From positions 9,864,001 to 9,928,000 of the forward strand of contig CANUEZ040000116.1 in NCBI GenBank assembly GCA_948099385.1: DNA of 64,000 nt, in the 5' to 3' direction. Numbering within the stretch: the stretch's first letter is position 1; each line of letters opens with the position of its first letter. The position numbers and the translations under genes were made by a program. The notes under the pieces are model-generated. The model did not search any database, was not told where the DNA came from, and was given only the letters and a program-made list of their open reading frames with translations. Of the stretch, positions 5,259 through 46,259 are shown in pieces. Origin of the DNA: Fasciola hepatica. Its lineage: Eukaryota > Platyhelminthes > Trematoda > Plagiorchiida > Fasciolidae.

Positions 5259-5272
5259 CAGTTATGATTGTA
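5259..5272. repeat. Target-site duplication, left
   Basis: CAGTTATGATTGTA, repeated exactly at 5396-5409 on the other side of the truncated SINE. Confidence 0.75.
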
Positions 5273-5395
5273 ATTGAGTAGTAGGAGATTAGATTTGTAT
5301 ATAATATGATTCTTCATGCAGCTTGAACGCTCAACTCACCATTGAAAACCATGGAAGCACTGTACAGCTTTTTAATCCTTGTTGGGAATCATCAG
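5273..5395 (-). mobile_element. 5'-truncated hammerhead SINE copy
   Basis: Read on the minus strand, it starts just before the hammerhead core (CTGATGATTCCC) and runs to the SINE 3' end, matching the 3' half of the full elements at 43.3-43.9 kb. The tRNA-like head and stem I 5' strand are missing. The GAAA of the core has become TTAAAA-like, so this copy cannot form an active ribozyme. A 14 bp direct repeat flanks it (5259-5272 and 5396-5409), as expected for LINE-driven insertion with 5' truncation. Confidence 0.8.
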
Positions 5396-5409
5396 CAGTT
5401 ATGATTGTA
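5396..5409. repeat. Target-site duplication, right
   Basis: Second copy of CAGTTATGATTGTA. The first three bases could also belong to the element, so the certain duplication is at least 11 bp. Confidence 0.75.
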
Positions 5410-14779: not shown

Positions 14780-15008
14780 CATTTAACTATGATTTGCAGC
14801 TGAGTATACATGGAAGCCTTGAACAAATGTTTCATCCTCGTTAGAAATCATCAACAGTACACATTCCATGAGCCCCCACTGGGACTCAAACATGGAGTGC
14901 ACGACTGTGAGTCCGGTGCCTAACCACTAGGCTGTAGGGACTGGTTATCAACGGTTTATTGAACATATAAGCTACACGACATAGCACCCTTCCACCAGTG
15001 ACCTTGAA
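14780..15008 (-). mobile_element. Older full-length hammerhead SINE copy
   Basis: Collinear on the minus strand with the elements at 43.3-43.9 kb: the head block (CAGTG...GGAAGGGTGCTAT), A box GCCTAGTGGTTAGG, an anticodon-loop-like CTCACAG segment, a B box region (TGTTTGAGTCCC), the GGGGGCTC link, and then the ribozyme region. The core has changed to CTGTTGATGA, stem II has several substitutions and stem III is lost, so cleavage is not expected. The 3' tail is shortened. The A box fits the pol III consensus better than in the palindrome copies, suggesting an older but related subfamily. Confidence 0.8.
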
Positions 15009-15189: not shown

Positions 15190-15360
15190 CCAGCCCGAGC
15201 AACCTGGCCGTGCTCGACTAGCGATCGTTCACCAGGGGTTTGAGAACCAGTGGCTCGGTGATTGGGCATATCCGATGATTCCTAACAGGCTAGATTAAAC
15301 AGATCATTAGGGCTACCATGGTTTTCTATGGAGCTTAACTTTTTACTGCATAGTAAACCA
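15190..15360 (+). mobile_element. Strongly decayed hammerhead SINE copy
   Basis: Contains CGATGATTCCTAACA, then TTAAACAGA, then CTACCATGGTTTTCTATGG and a GCATAGTAAACCA tail, in the order of the SINE 3' half. Upstream, GGGGTTTGAGAACC could be a decayed B box. No stem I pairing survives. Confidence 0.5.
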
Positions 15361-27700: not shown

Positions 27701-28929
27701 AAATATGCGTTTGCGCTGCGTGAATTTTCTGTTCTACTTTTGCGAGAATTTAGCCCACACGTATCGATCCGCTGTCGAAAGTTTGACGAGAATATGCAAC
27801 TCCATTTACCCAGTCCAACGGAATGCCACGTAGGAAGTAAAAAACAGAGGAAAATTAGAGAAGGTATCCTCCAGTGTAGGAAATACCTGGCATGTGCCTA
27901 AGCTCAACATAACAACTTAAATGAACTCTGGGGTGCTGGGATTATTTATTTCCTAATTATGTGAATTCCATCTTATATCGCACTAAGCAGGCAGGCTTCG
28001 TCGACTTGCCCTATTCTGCGTAACAAAAATCTTTCAGCTGATCTGGTAAGAAGAATGGTGCAAGATACAACTTGAACGCGGAAATACATAGTGGTAATAA
28101 CTAAACTTGCTAATCGGCTGAATGAGAAGGGCTTATAGTATCTACCTATTGACCACCTAATCAATGTTAAGTCGAGGACACTATTTAGAGTAGTAAAATC
28201 ACTACTTCATGGAGAATTATCTCGTTTTCAATTAAAATAAATGCATTTCATACTGTATTCGTATTCCTACAGAGTCCTTAGGTGTACCACTTCTACTGGC
28301 TCACAACTTTCATGTGATCTATCGGAATTACTTGTACAACAAAGGCTTTAGCCGAGGGATCCGGAATGCCAGTGAGCCGCCATCATACAACATAGGAAAG
28401 ATTTTAACCGTTGGTTCGTGGCGTGAACAATTCAACGGAAAAGTAAAAAGCTCTTAGTTATTTAAGAAACTTTGGGCTTATTTCTTATAGGTTACGCAAA
28501 CATGAACCGAGTCTGTCTAAAGATGTACATGATCTGGGTAGTTTGTGATTTTAGTGACCGCAACTTACGGTCTGTGAGGAAGCATCACTCGAGTTGGCTG
28601 AGTCAAAGTTGATCTGTAATGACTGCAAGCACGTAGGTAAGCTGAGTGGTAGATACTGGTCAGCTCGTAGTTGGTAATAAATAAGAGGTAATGATAACTG
28701 ACAGAGTGTTGAAGACCCCATGAAATAGGTCCGGATAAGTTTACTAGCTAACGGCAAGACTATGGAATAAAGCAACTGGACCTGAAGACTGTCTACAATA
28801 CCGATGAGTTCACGCCTTTGTCCCATTGTTGAAAATCATCCATCCTTACGGACTGGTGGTCAGATAATTTATGTTGCAGTCAGCATTTAATGGTCAGATG
28901 AATGTGCTGTGAATAAATAAATGGGAGTA
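24786..28929. other. Unassigned interval
   Basis: About 4.1 kb with only short frames (largest 28551-28826 minus, 91 aa, and 26595-26867 plus, 90 aa). No recognised domain or in-window repeat. A possible B-box-like TTCGATTCCC lies on the minus strand near 27232-27241 without a matching A box. Confidence 0.35.
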
Positions 28930-29058
28930 GTAGGAAACTAGATTTTCACATAGTATGATTCATCATGCAATGTGGGCTTTCAAAACACTGAAAATCACGC
29001 AAACACTGTATGGCTGCCTCATTCTTGTCAGAAATCATCAGCAACGCACATTCAACAG
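28930..29058 (-). mobile_element. 5'-truncated hammerhead SINE copy
   Basis: Minus-strand match to the SINE 3' half, from just upstream of CTGATGA to the GAGTAGTAGG-type 3' end shared with the 5.3 kb copy. The stem I 5' strand survives as GTGCGTTG. The core GAAA has become GAGG, so it is inactive. No clear target duplication. Confidence 0.7.
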
Positions 29059-36509: not shown

Positions 36510-37596
36510 GTGGAATATGAACAGAGACGTTCATGTTTGGCCCTGTCAACCGAAGAAAATTCTTTGGCATGTGCTCTACTTGCTACCAAAATACCCACCG
36601 GCAAGGCACCTTTTTCTCATGTCCACTTATATATTGTTGGCCTATTACTACCGACCAGCGGATAACGCTTTCTTCTCACAGACGTAAGTTGTTTTACATG
36701 TCGGCTCATGACTATCCCCATAGTTGCACGTCAAATGAAACAACTTCCAACACGTTTTTACGCCGGAGGGTTTCTGTGTTTGGGGTTCCATCTACAACCA
36801 CCCCGGATGGAGGTGCACAATTTCAATCCAAACTCGTCCATGATTTGGCTTCTGCCCTTGGATTTCCACATATTCGTACAATTACATATCACCCTTTATC
36901 CAGTGGATTGGTAGAGCTCTTTCACAGACAACTAGAAGCCTCTGTCATCTCCTCCTCTTATTTAGCAAAGTGGACGGAAGCCACCCAGCTAACCATGCTG
37001 TACATAAGTACAACCCTAAAGGAAGACCTTGGTTTTGTCCAGCTGAATTGATGTTGTCACCCCCCTGCCCACAATTGCTCGGGGAGTTTTTCGGACGCAG
37101 GCCTGATGTTATTGACCCCTCCAAATTTGCTCGGTAATCACAGTAATCACTTTGACTGCAGTATGCACGAGCGAAGATGCAGCGCAATGATCCGGAACAC
37201 ATCGTGCAATCTAATGCGATTGACTTCTATGTTCAAATCTGTGTCGAGAAAGTTATGTTTTCAATCACAGTTGCATACGAAAACACTCCGTTCGCTCCCG
37301 ACCCGGTCCTTCGTTTGTCCTTCTCACATTCCCAAAGCTTTATGTACATGCTTTCATGTTTTTCTTCATTGGGATGCTGTTCAACTCCGTTGCGTCCAGC
37401 ATATTCACGCCCGTTTCGTGCCACTTCCCGTAAAGATAAATTTTTTGTCATTGATAAAGCTGGTCAGCCAGACATTGTCAGTTATGATGGCCTCAAAGTA
37501 GCATACCTCGACTCGTACCTTATGGCTTCAGTTCCCTCCAAAAAACTCCCACTTCTAATTTCAGTGACGCCACTCCTCGTGTCTCAGAGAGATTGA
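36510..37596 (+). pseudogene. pol: Ty3/gypsy retrotransposon pol remnant: integrase and C-terminal tail
   Basis: The strongest part is the integrase catalytic core: VFGVPSTTTPDGGAQFQS, then IRTITYHPLSSGLVELFHR. The D of the D-G-G-A-Q-F block and the E of G-L-V-E-x-F-H-R, the second and third acidic residues of the D,D-35-E triad, are kept, while the first lies in a frameshifted stretch near 36600-36700. A one-base loss near 37035 moves the frame to the A-E-L-M-L-S-P-P segment. The tail (RKDKFFVID, then DGLKVAYLD) is typical of gypsy C-termini. Stops around 37135 come from an inserted repeat. No RNase H or reverse transcriptase is visible upstream. The CsRn1-like group of trematodes is a reasonable guess. 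Inactive. Confidence 0.85.
37135..37265 (+). repeat. ~110 bp repeat inserted in the gypsy pol remnant
   Basis: Lies between the pol segments that read DPSKFAR and HTKTLRSLPTRSFV, where related elements have only a short linker. It shares the CATCGTGCAATCT block and its surroundings with 32915-33025 and 51290-51420, and introduces in-frame stops. Confidence 0.5.
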
Positions 37597-43100: not shown

Positions 43101-43339
43101 TCGTGACGATAGGGAAAAGTTTGCCCAAAACTGGGAACACTCAATACTCTAGTAAATAGGGAAGGTTACTTTCTGGGAACAGGTCGGAAGCTTGTTACTG
43201 CAACTTATATTGATCTCACTTTTTCCTTCGGTGATTATATGTTCCCAGCATTATCCACCAAAATGTAACGCCACAGCAAAACGCTGCGGGTAAAATTTAC
43301 TCGCATGTCCAATTGTGGAACTGATACTATCTGTATTTT
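40196..43339. other. Unassigned interval
   Basis: About 3.1 kb. The longest frame is 40859-41278 minus (139 aa, Ser- and Thr-rich, no domain recognised). Opposing frames at 41962-42234 plus and 41967-42218 minus cannot both be real and neither resembles a known family. Confidence 0.35.
40859..41278 (-). CDS. Unassigned 139-aa reading frame
   Basis: Starts with ATG and has a mildly hydrophobic N-terminal third followed by a Ser/Thr-rich and polar C-terminus. No catalytic or binding motif visible, no repeat relationship inside the window, and no recognisable splice signals. It is reported because of its length only and is probably not a gene. Confidence 0.15.
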   Translation of the reverse strand: MFSSQILYSIIRLPVARDIFLLVRPSKVSTSRSFSSPYLSPLTLVRGCATAVTNIPDFVSTFSACLLRAAQSSTISKSPQGNQSDDTELHVTSAIQMFVCVLSVHVIDLETKMNISNDRSQIQWNTKIKSRLDLSTCLC

Positions 43340-43398
43340 TATATAATATGATTCATCATGCAGCTTGAACGCTTAACTCACCATTGAAAACCATGGAA

Positions 43399-43443
43399 GC
43401 ACTATACAGCTGTTTCACCCTTGTTGGGAATCATCAGCAGTGC
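43399..43443 (-). ncRNA. Hammerhead ribozyme core (left arm)
   Basis: Minus strand: stem I 5' strand GCACTG, then CTGATGA, a stem II region TTCCCAACAAGGGT, GAAA, stem III CAGCTG, TA with cleavage predicted after the A, and stem I 3' strand TAGTGC. Stem I forms five Watson-Crick pairs plus one G-U. CAGCTG is its own complement, so stem III is only 3 bp in a monomer without a loop and is best formed between two RNAs. Stem II can pair as U-G, C-G, C-G with loop CAACAA, but its first pair, normally G-C, would be U-U. That may weaken cleavage. Fold and site are inferred, not measured. Confidence 0.65.
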
Positions 43444-43464
43444 ACATCCACCGAGCCCCCACGG

Positions 43465-43476
43465 GGACTCGAATCC
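43465..43476 (-). promoter_or_regulatory. Pol III B box (left SINE)
   Basis: GGATTCGAGTCC on the minus strand, matching the GWTCRANNC core. It follows the A box by about 30 bases, as in a tRNA gene. Confidence 0.7.
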
Positions 43477-43506
43477 GGGGTGACGATTGTGAATCGAACA
43501 CCTTAA

Positions 43507-43517
43507 CCACAAGGCTA
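43507..43517 (-). promoter_or_regulatory. Pol III A box (left SINE)
   Basis: TAGCCTTGTGG on the minus strand, close to the TRGYNNARYGG consensus with one deviation. Confidence 0.6.
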
Positions 43518-43597
43518 TCCGGGGTTGGCTCTCAACGGTTTGTTGAACATCTACACTACATGATATAGCACCCTTCCGTCACTGGCTTTTTGAACGG

Positions 43598-43611
43598 GAA
43601 GCGGGTTGTTA
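43598..43611. other. Spacer at the palindrome centre
   Basis: Fourteen bases (GAAGCGGGTTGTTA) separate the two head-to-head SINEs. Short enough for the 258 bp arms to extrude as a cruciform or to yield a long RNA hairpin. Confidence 0.9.
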
Positions 43612-43691
43612 CCGTTCAAAAAGCCAGTGACGGAAGGGTGCTATATCATGTAGTGTAGATGTTCAACAAACCGTTGAGAGCCAACCCCGGA

Positions 43692-43702
43692 TAGCCTTGT
43701 GG
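43692..43702 (+). promoter_or_regulatory. Pol III A box (right SINE)
   Basis: TAGCCTTGTGG, identical to the left copy. Transcription would begin in the head region and run outward through the ribozyme. Confidence 0.6.
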
Positions 43703-43732
43703 TTAAGGTGTTCGATTCACAATCGTCACCCC

Positions 43733-43744
43733 GGATTCGAGTCC
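43733..43744 (+). promoter_or_regulatory. Pol III B box (right SINE)
   Basis: GGATTCGAGTCC, identical to the left copy. Confidence 0.7.
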
Positions 43745-43765
43745 CCGTGGGGGCCCGGTGGATGT

Positions 43766-43810
43766 GCACTGCTGATGATTCCCAACAAGGGTGAAACAAC
43801 TGTACAGTGC
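43766..43810 (+). ncRNA. Hammerhead ribozyme core (right arm)
   Basis: GCACTG, CTGATGA, stem II region, GAAA, CAACTG, TA, CAGTGC in order. Stem I is a perfect 6 bp. Stem III differs from the left arm by G to A at its third base, so CAACTG is no longer fully self-complementary, and dimer formation would be weaker. It could still pair partly with the left-arm CAGCTG. The stem II loop CAACAA and the U-U first pair are as in the left arm. Confidence 0.6.
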
Positions 43811-43869
43811 TTCCATGGTTTTCAATGGTGAGTTGAGCGTTCAAGCTGCATGACGAACCATATTATATA

Positions 43870-46259
43870 CACATCTGTATTTTATTTAAAAGTTTTTAAT
43901 AAGATTATTCATTATAGTCCTACACTGCACTGAAATGAAAGGCGAATATGGTTTAGCCGTGTCTGTTTTAGCCTATCTAAAAGTGGCACTTTACGCCTTA
44001 CGACAGAGGACACCAGTTGAAGTGGCGAAGAAATACTGAAAGCATGGCGAATCGTGGTGAATATTGATCCACTTGGTGTGGTCCGTGGCAAGAGTTCGAG
44101 GGTTTACAAAAGCGTGACTTATGATCAGAATTACTAGTCACTCATTTTAGCAACTGCAATGTCGCAAAACCCATTACTCTGGTTGAAATGGGTGGCAGCA
44201 GACCATGGGTAACCTCGTAGTAGTGTATTATTTTAAGATCCCCGGCCAACGCGCAATTCGCTGCGGTCAGTCATCTACACGAGACTAGTTTTCTGAGACG
44301 ATCACATTACCACTAGACGATGTTCCAGATCATGGTTCATCTGCTCTCGTATATCTTAAGGTAGCTGGAATTTCCTTTTTCTTGTGCTCAGTTTTCACCA
44401 TCCCCCCATTTCTGCACAGGTTTGAGTGCGATTGATCATTTTTTCTTATCACTGATGACGGAAAAACCTATTGCCTTTTTTATCCATTAAACTTAGGAGA
44501 CTAGGGTTAGGCGTTGTACGAAAGCTACTGACTAACCCTGGAAATTAGCTCACATTTCAACTACATTTCTTAATTTCTAGTTTACGAACATACTTTCCAG
44601 GGTTCTTTAATATTTAGGGTTGCCGATGTTTTGAAAATAATACTGACAAATATTAGTACTTAGGTTTATAGCTCAGTCAGCCTGGGTGCAAAAGTCTCAG
44701 AACTAACCAATGTTTTGATATTTTCTGATTAGCATGCATTGAAAAATGGTAGACAGAATTGGAACTAATAAACTTTGCATGATATCAAATCGTCCTATTT
44801 CGACGGGCTTTTATCTAGATAAATTTATGGAGTTGCGTACAGAATGTTTCTTTGTTAATTTACAACATCGACGTGATTCTGTAAATTTCATGGGTTTCAC
44901 AGTCCCCCAAGAACTTTGACTGGGTCAAAGAAGTTTTCGTTATTCAGTAACACGATTTGCCTGGGGTTGATGGAAAATCCCCCCCCCCAGCTGATAAAGA
45001 TAGAACGGGAAATTTGGGTGAAATTAAAAGGCACAAGATCGGCCCTCATTGAGTTTACATTGCATGGATGAGTCAACTTGCATAGAAACACCACAGGCAT
45101 CATAAGAAGTCTGGAAGCTTTACAAAGTAGACACTTAACATAGTATGGGTGTATAATTTAAAAATAAACTTTACAGTGTTAGGAAAGGCTTACTTTTCTT
45201 CCGTATCTAATGGAAACCTTTGCCGGGTATTTTGGCAACACAAAACATCGTAAATCCGGTGTTCCCCGTTAGCTGAAGAACACACGGGTTCACGGTGATC
45301 CCGATTCACAGTATATATAGGATATTCAAAACTCTGATTTCCACAGGAGAATTGAATGGCACGATCAATATATGAGAAAATAAAGGAGGCTTAAGTCTCG
45401 AGATGCAAACATTTCGTTTATTCTCATCCACCACGTACGTAAGTTAAAATCAACGCAAGCATCCATCTATTTTCCGAAAAGGTTCGTCAGCTATAGTAAA
45501 CTAAACTGAGGGAGGCGTTGTGCAGGAGGTCCATAAAAAAGTTCAGTTTCCACGTCATCGGGAATGTGCCTGGTTAATTACCTTATCAAAAGCCTGAAAA
45601 TATTTGGCCCTTGGCTCATTTAGTCCGAAACAGTGGTAAGTGATCCACTAGCCTCGGTTACATAACCCCATAGATAAACAGCTTTTGCCGATCGAAACCA
45701 AAAGTGCACGTCATTCCCACCGGGCAGTAGCGACGATCGGCACCACAATGCTGTGAAGTGAATAACAGCACTTCACATTCTGATCTTCGAAGCATCAAGC
45801 GAATTCATTACACGGACAGAAAAGAATGACTGGCGTGAAGTATTACTTTGCCGACGTGTAGTTTATGGTCTGAGGGACACCAAATGTGCGAGAATCAATT
45901 CTGGTGGGGAAAAATGGCCAACATTATGGTTATCAGGGAAAAACATTATGCGAGAAAGTGATATATACAGCCAACAGAATAAACGGTGCCATGTCCCATT
46001 TGCCATTCCCCATCTCCGGCCTCAGAAAGTTATTATACATCATTTCAGAAATAGGATAACACGTGATCAAACTCACGTGCACATATATCTTCACACTTTA
46101 GGCGAATAAACACAAAAGTGGTCCGCTCACTACTGAACTTCCCTCTCCAAAAAATAATTTCAAAATAATCAATTTTCACTGCCTGGTTCATTACCGTATA
46201 ATGTCAATTTAAAGACAGGGATTTTTTAGTGGAATCAAATACAGCAGAAACTTCAGATG

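Follow-up and report, generated by a model that had tools for sequence, protein, structure and literature searches.

The protein of Penelope-like elements (PLEs) has been described as cleaving and extending both strands of its target (PMC11167929). In that account reverse transcription starts at two internal sites, a 30-40-bp tail lies between them, and this tail signature is called unique to PLEs (PMC11167929). PLE copies have been reported in which the pLTRs are inverted and one of them has a tail; their target-site duplications (TSDs) measure 8-10 bp, and head-to-head was the most frequent arrangement (PMC3846280). For metazoan retrozymes, tandem cDNA made from circular RNA with the help of PLEs was put forward as a proposal rather than a demonstration (PMC7229834). 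A term search of the text of the same paper returned neither "inverted" nor "head-to-head" (PMC7229834).

Each taken singly, retrozymes, head-to-head copies in the style of PLEs and the extension of two strands by a PLE protein are already known. In the open-licence literature we found no papers on head-to-head retrozymes, none on head-to-head SINEs with a TSD and twin priming, and none on the combination of retrozymes with PLE-style insertion, a single tailed arm per pair and mirrored multi-lap arrays in one duplication. The Sm-alpha repeats of schistosomes are short and SINE-like and have a hammerhead and pol III-like boxes; our family resembles them by description only.

Here we analysed a palindrome in a stretch of 64,000 nucleotides of the Fasciola hepatica genome (the window). 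Its family agrees with the metazoan non-LTR retrozymes, as described in PMC7229834, in a unit of ~400 bp, one type I hammerhead per unit, an occurrence from dimers to long arrays and TSDs longer than 4 bp. Unlike the retrozymes of that description (PMC7229834), it appears to insert by priming from both strands, and it has a mirrored double array in one TSD. The head-to-head arrangement, a tail of ~30 nt on one inverted part and a TSD round the insert are shared with PLEs, as are partial tandems and a hammerhead motif, the two-strand extension of PLEs being an in vitro result (PMC3846280, PMC11167929). The ~400-bp unit, the tRNA-like part and arms of up to 11 units distinguish the family from PLEs. 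The window palindrome is most likely a recurrent product of both-strand integration of a retrozyme by PLE machinery, and other places in the genome, among them long mirrored arrays, look as if they had been made in the same way.

The palindrome in the window

The first-pass annotation had described two full-length SINEs facing each other as a near-perfect palindrome. The palindrome was confirmed. Two inverted copies (43340-43597 and 43612-43869) pair over 258 bp with no indel and six mismatches around a 14-bp spacer, and the match of the 530 bp to their own reverse complement is beyond chance (E 8.3e-247). All six mismatches are transitions (43351, 43355, 43374, 43404, 43410 and 43454), and since the arms differ at these sites, their outward transcripts would not be identical as had been supposed. 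The copies also turned out not to be full-length when placed on the 401-bp unit (BLAST ends, Table 1). Both are without 5' sequence and without the last ~30 nt that are present in other copies.

The entire palindrome is bracketed by an 11-bp direct repeat, ATCTGTATTTT, which had escaped the first reading. The left arm adjoins this repeat directly, and three extra bases (CAC) lie between the paired part of the right arm and the repeat. The bases of the spacer continue in front of the right-arm sequence in other copies, e.g. at locus L003, and on this comparison the spacer is natural 5' sequence of the right copy and not foreign DNA. At the 5'-to-5' junction two G can be assigned by eye to either side, the exact-match script having left the window junction undecided. 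Among 23 junctions, microhomology of 1-3 nt was found in 11 and the other 12 were not resolved, with at least 1 nt expected by chance in 42%.

We then looked for variants shared by the two arms. A 23-mer with their shared 1-nt insertion and a neighbouring variant occurs genome-wide in the two window arms only, and a 21-mer with their shared 1-nt deletion in both arms and one other place. Both searches were exact, so mutated relatives of these words would be missed. The enclosing repeat, the spacer made of right-copy 5' sequence and the private 23-mer in both arms together indicate that the palindrome arose as one integration of two 5'-truncated cDNAs joined 5' to 5'. Two tRNA-like hammerhead mobile elements do face each other, as first annotated, but a single event replaces the two separate insertions and retrozyme is a better label than SINE.

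Palindromes are a known assembly hazard, and the first-pass annotation had asked for a fold-back to be considered. One locus, L056 (G000:C10:3085700-3087900; head-to-head, 1.6 + 2.0 units), has outer flanks mirrored over 364/364 bases and could be a genuine palindrome of large size or else a fold-back of the assembly. The window flanks match at 17/60 bases, i.e. they are not mirrored, and the arms have six differences and unequal 5' starts, an 11-bp direct repeat around them and element sequence as a spacer. The unmirrored flanks, the arm differences and the bracketing repeat make a fold-back of the assembly or of sequencing at 43598-43611 very improbable.

The A and B boxes and hammerhead core that had been assigned to each arm were recovered. 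In the right arm an A-box-like motif, a B-box-like motif and CTGATGA...GAAAC start at arm positions 81, 123, 161 and 182, and the left-arm motifs are their indel-free mirror. In both arms the A-box-like and B-box-like motifs are named by the general box consensus. Hammerhead cleavage would presumably occur at 43405/43404 (left) and 43804/43805 (right), as predicted from the hammerhead consensus.

Table 1. Features of the palindrome in window coordinates
Feature	Position	Strand	Basis or remark
Target-site duplication, left copy, ATCTGTATTTT	43329..43339	.	Direct repeat; control statistics over 36 loci
Left arm, 5'-truncated retrozyme copy, 3' end outward	43340..43597	-	Unit ~42-306
Left-arm hammerhead region; CTGATGA 43431-43437	43387..43454	-	Motifs, predicted fold; HH9 19.5 bits, below cut-off
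Left-arm tRNA-like part; A-box-like 43507-43517, B-box-like 43465-43475	43465..43517	-	Mirrored from right arm
Putative 5'-to-5' junction of two cDNAs; GG shared	43596..43599	.	By-eye comparison with L003 and the unit
Right arm, 5'-truncated copy including spacer 43598-43611 and CAC	43598..43872	+	Unit ~29-308
Right-arm tRNA-like part; A-box-like 43692-43702, B-box-like 43734-43744	43692..43744	+	Motif positions
Right-arm hammerhead region; CTGATGA 43772-43778	43755..43822	+	Motifs, predicted fold; HH9 24.1 bits, below cut-off
Target-site duplication, right copy, ATCTGTATTTT	43873..43883	.	Direct repeat

The whole window gave no Rfam match at gathering cut-offs and no tRNA with ARAGORN, and Pfam found no family in five of its nine open frames of at least 150 aa. 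The open frame at 36521-37051 (+) looks by eye like a Ty3-type integrase fragment and has no Pfam match. Four older, incomplete family copies lie at 5261-5399 (-), 14810-14993 (-), 15210-15331 (+) and 28925-29054 (-) and share 70-93% identity with the unit. Below the Rfam cut-off, the palindrome centre (43553-43656, equal to 1714-1817 of L010) and L045 at 1504-1598 resemble mir-3660, mir-471 and mir-8515. Read-through RNA of the palindrome centre could feed small-RNA pathways.

The retrozyme family and its head-to-head loci

The genome assembly that was searched comprises 1.5 Gb in 656 contigs, and a 401-bp tandem unit from L007 served as the reference for unit numbering. Family copies occur singly or as arrays that repeat every ~399-402 bp, and one 26-mer of the unit has 8214 exact occurrences. 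The Rfam model Hammerhead_1 matched one L007 tandem unit with 34.8 bits (cut-off 34), and six further L007/L045 units stayed below this cut-off at 28.8-29.2 bits. A type I hammerhead is thus present in the family, with both window copies below the Rfam cut-off (52 bits for HH9). Helix III is very short (GAAAC-AGCU-GUA) and its loop is palindromic by eye, which resembles amphibian hammerheads described as working as dimers (PMC7229834). The tRNA-like part is matched by Rfam at the sister locus L045 (34.6 bits, cut-off 29), in the part that corresponds to the left-arm tRNA-like region of the window.

Tandem repeats within the 150-450 bp of a retrozyme are seen as 401-bp steps in L007 and as 17 whole 400-bp units in L054. 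Inspection of the 401-bp unit itself revealed no LTR, and the best flank repeat is commonest at 11-12 bp, longer than the 4 bp asked of a retrozyme TSD. The pol III SINE reading is weak. The A box is found at unit ~124, ~120 nt inside the longest copies, and not near the 5' end as in a tRNA-derived SINE. Because the longest copies start ~120 nt upstream of the A box, a tRNA-like internal promoter alone cannot explain the inserted 5' parts. Since the element also forms ~400-bp tandem arrays, it is better described as a non-LTR retrozyme of the metazoan type than as an ordinary SINE. The segment at unit ~344-401 (L007), which is missing from most single-lap copies, is predicted to form a stable hairpin (-19.5 kcal/mol, z -2.6) and may be a start or stop site of reverse transcription.

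The arrangement had been called unusual, and a genome search for further pairs was proposed. This search yielded 49 head-to-head loci after removal of repeats, with L004 and L005 counted once. A whole-palindrome search, in which 38 of 4674 candidates were scored, gave at least nine clean head-to-head loci including the window. Pattern searches returned 17 head-to-head places at gaps of 60-90 and another 17 at gaps of 91-121, each with none in the reversed-pattern control; the tail-to-tail pattern, searched over the whole genome in one gap range (36-66), gave none. The first 100 of the 8214 26-mer places fell into 51 clusters with 10 head-to-head and no tail-to-tail steps, so the arrangement recurs. 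A locus was not extracted for 13 of the 34 pattern places, one of which, C184, is covered by L015.

Both outer ends were examined at 36 of the 49 loci. We excluded L046 (left end outside the locus), L019 (tandem fragment beside the copy), L001, L002, L009, L014, L020, L025, L026, L044 and L049 (repeats), and L005 (segmental copy of L004). Arm ends are BLAST ends without TSD trimming and are uncertain by several bases. L004 and L005, ~275 kb apart on G000:C31, have both their head-to-head insertion and its flanks in common, which means that a segmental duplication copied the insertion. A GIY-YIG match is located 8726 bases from the start of both.

A direct repeat of at least 9 bp was found in the flanks of 25/36 loci, compared with 16/1260 mismatched flank pairs. 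After removal of three AT-microsatellite loci and one locus with mirrored flanks, the counts were 22/32 and 7/992 for at least 9 bp, and 19/32 and 0/992 for at least 11 bp. The mode of the repeat length in these 32 loci is 12 bp (10/32), followed by 11 bp (6/32), while the best match between mismatched flanks of head-to-head loci averages 5.2 bp. No flank repeat reached 9 bp at 11 of the 36 loci. In an earlier run, restricted to 23 of the 36, the counts had been 17/23 and 6/506. Single-orientation copies and arrays showed such a repeat in 2/6 cases (L003, 11 bp; L023, 10 bp) and in 0/30 mismatched pairs.

The two arms of a pair also share derived states. In 23 pairs 79 derived states are common to both arms, where 300 shuffles of partners gave a mean of 11.9 and a maximum of 24. 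When only states found in at most one other arm are counted, 38 are common to the pair (shuffled mean 2.9, maximum 9). Reciprocal nearest relatives were seen in 4/23 pairs only, probably because many copies are almost identical. The shared variants could alternatively come from two RNAs of one source or from gene conversion between the arms.

With 8214 exact 26-mer copies the family is abundant, and two independent insertions might meet head to head by chance. Such meetings are ruled out for most loci, since the TSD encloses the pair, the arms have private variants in common and tail-to-tail pairs were absent both from the one gap range searched genome-wide and from the 51 clusters. As a general account we give chance meeting almost no credence. 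A palindromic DNA transposon, i.e. an inverted-repeat MITE that moves as a unit, would likewise present inverted repeats within a TSD. However, spacers and 5' breakpoints vary among the loci, arms range from 0.4 to 11 units and TSD length varies. One combination of breakpoints (near 1-3 and 59-62) was seen more than once, but in another orientation and between other flanks. The junction pattern of the window palindrome occurs once in the genome, in the window only, which shows that no such unit is present. A MITE was rejected as next to impossible.

Outer ends and mirrored arrays

The 72 outer ends of the 36 pairs fall mainly at two sites, 31 at unit 284-312 and 33 at unit 322-345, with eight elsewhere. 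Exactly one arm ends at 322-345, and so has a 3' tail of ~30 nt, in 33/36 pairs; these are 26 pairs of a long with a short end and seven of a long end with neither. Shuffled ends gave a mean of 18.2 one-tailed pairs, and none of 20000 shuffles reached 33. The window pair, with arm ends at 306 and 308 and no tail on either arm, is one of the three exceptions. The PLE tail of 30-40 bp (PMC11167929) is close to the retrozyme tail in length, in its presence on one arm only and in orientation. The end sites differ between the arms in 33/36 retrozyme pairs, in contrast to PLEs in vitro, for which no difference in start site between strands is described (PMC11167929). One start site per arm is a new point, and it would be explained by one RNA with two sites, one for each strand.

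The strongest rival to two primings is a hairpin, in which one cDNA or antisense RNA folds back and is copied and the 14-nt spacer represents the loop. For Adineta vaga, self-priming on an antisense template was suggested as the origin of Penelope copies that lie head to head (PMC3846280). A hairpin accounts for identical private variants in both arms and for the short loop. It also suits the finding that the tailed arm has the longer 5' part in 14/19 single-lap one-tailed pairs, and in 19/27 when eight more pairs, whose arms do not exceed about one lap, are added; the reverse holds in seven and one is equal (L060). However, these seven pairs (L018, L021, L034, L037, L042; L053, L058) have the tail on the loop-less arm, which contradicts a hairpin because copying the other arm cannot produce such a tail. 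In addition, 64/72 outer ends lie at the two preferred sites. Two primings are favoured because this holds for the outer ends of both arms, even in the multi-lap locus L054, where they were preserved after many laps (unit 331 and 285). We regard hairpins as an unlikely general explanation that may apply to part of the pairs. Under double priming, the hairpin-like bias of the tailed arm needs a reason of its own, e.g. the tailed cDNA starting first.

We also considered twin priming of the LINE type on two RNAs, which would need a LINE endonuclease and reverse transcriptase and no PLE. L1 twin priming, as described in PMC2912911, likewise involves internal priming by the second target strand with the TSD retained, and the resulting 5'-inverted L1 copies have TSDs of 10-17 bp. 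Its product is an inverted 5' and a non-inverted 3' segment that adjoin on one RNA, whereas the retrozyme arms overlap almost fully (PMC2912911). Moreover, 5'-inversion is reported there as very rare in small trans-mobilised elements (one Alu, 4/477 SVA; PMC2912911), whereas retrozymes are head-to-head in 10 of the 51 clusters from the first 100 of 8214 copies. The tail signature, described as unique to PLEs (PMC11167929), also speaks against a LINE. We consider this origin improbable.

Several head-to-head loci have arms of more than one unit. The largest of them, L054 (C8), is a head-to-head double array of 7.6 kb, with 7.88 laps in its left arm and 11.06 in its right, and lies inside one 12-bp repeat, ACTAAATCTTGT. 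Comparison of 20 pieces, 17 of them whole 400-bp units, revealed seven variable sites, six of which are singletons. Two states are fixed in both arms and differ from the majority of 11 aligned loci; they are not private to L054, since L055 has both. L055 itself (10.35 + 2.78 laps) has no clear TSD and 5/12 of its variable sites are common to several units, so that a single circle is a poorer fit here. L045, L051, L052 and L059 have 0.4-1.8 laps per arm and repeats of 12-13 bp, that of L051 in an AT microsatellite.

We examined the 5' ends in 10 head-to-head clusters that had not been selected by gap. Half of these ends (10/20) are at unit 1-13, 400-401 or 60-72, and the other 10 are distributed all round the unit (e.g. 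380, 261, 195, 316, 280, 330), as expected of a template without a single 5' end. A circular template explains the scattered ends most simply, the alternative being a long RNA from a uniform array.

Probable priming from both target strands

We think it probable that each pair results from one event, in which PLE-type machinery primes from both target strands on one retrozyme RNA, which was probably circular. A nicking endonuclease would open the two strands of an AT-rich target ~11 bp apart, and both free 3' ends would prime reverse transcription of the retrozyme RNA. In most pairs one cDNA would start at the distal site (unit ~333, giving the ~30-nt tail) and the other at the proximal site (unit ~303), and in the window pair both would start at the proximal one. 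Both cDNAs, probably copied from the same RNA molecule rather than from two RNAs of one source, would run toward the 5' side of the RNA and then be joined 5' to 5', and gap filling would produce the duplication of 11 bp. Most likely a PLE supplied the machinery.

Putative PLE-like genes, called on a GIY-YIG match, are present in the genome and appear in the same arrangement as the retrozyme pairs. At least 90 GIY-YIG matches were obtained with 150 of 302 candidates scored, and several are in frames of ~800-870 aa. By a hand count among the 90 listed, neighbours within 6 kb are head-to-head in 10 cases, on the same strand in seven and tail-to-tail in none. Two of the 10 head-to-head neighbours, both on C8, appear to be duplicates of one another. 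Partial tandem or head-to-head PLE-like genes were seen at G000:C72:4552003-4558044, C107:1527968-1532464, C41:3088630-3092030 and other places. Two pieces of one PLE, on C27, contain a direct repeat of 509 bp and an inverted segment of 92 bp, both with identical copies. Comparison of these pieces, from this single PLE, with the retrozyme unit gave no similarity and no retrozyme-like 3' end, and Rfam gave no match on them.

The multi-unit arms were most likely copied over several laps from a circular retrozyme RNA. The fuller proposal is that both strands prime on the same circular RNA, each at one of two adjacent start sites, and that copying covers anything from part of a lap to eleven laps, which would give a mirrored satellite array. 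This we put forward tentatively, at slightly less than an even chance. If it is true, one integration inside an 11-12-bp duplication would be a one-step birth of palindromic satellite DNA, as in L054 with its 7.9 + 11.1 units.

Three testable genomic marks link retrozymes with the way in which PLEs integrate: insertion from both strands, a tail present on one arm of the pair and absent from the other, and a multi-lap array of nearly identical units that is mirrored within a single duplication. They may be an in vivo counterpart to the two-strand extension by purified PLE protein, and they are evidence against self-priming as the sole source of head-to-head copies. They also suggest how some tandem satellite arrays could have originated in one step.
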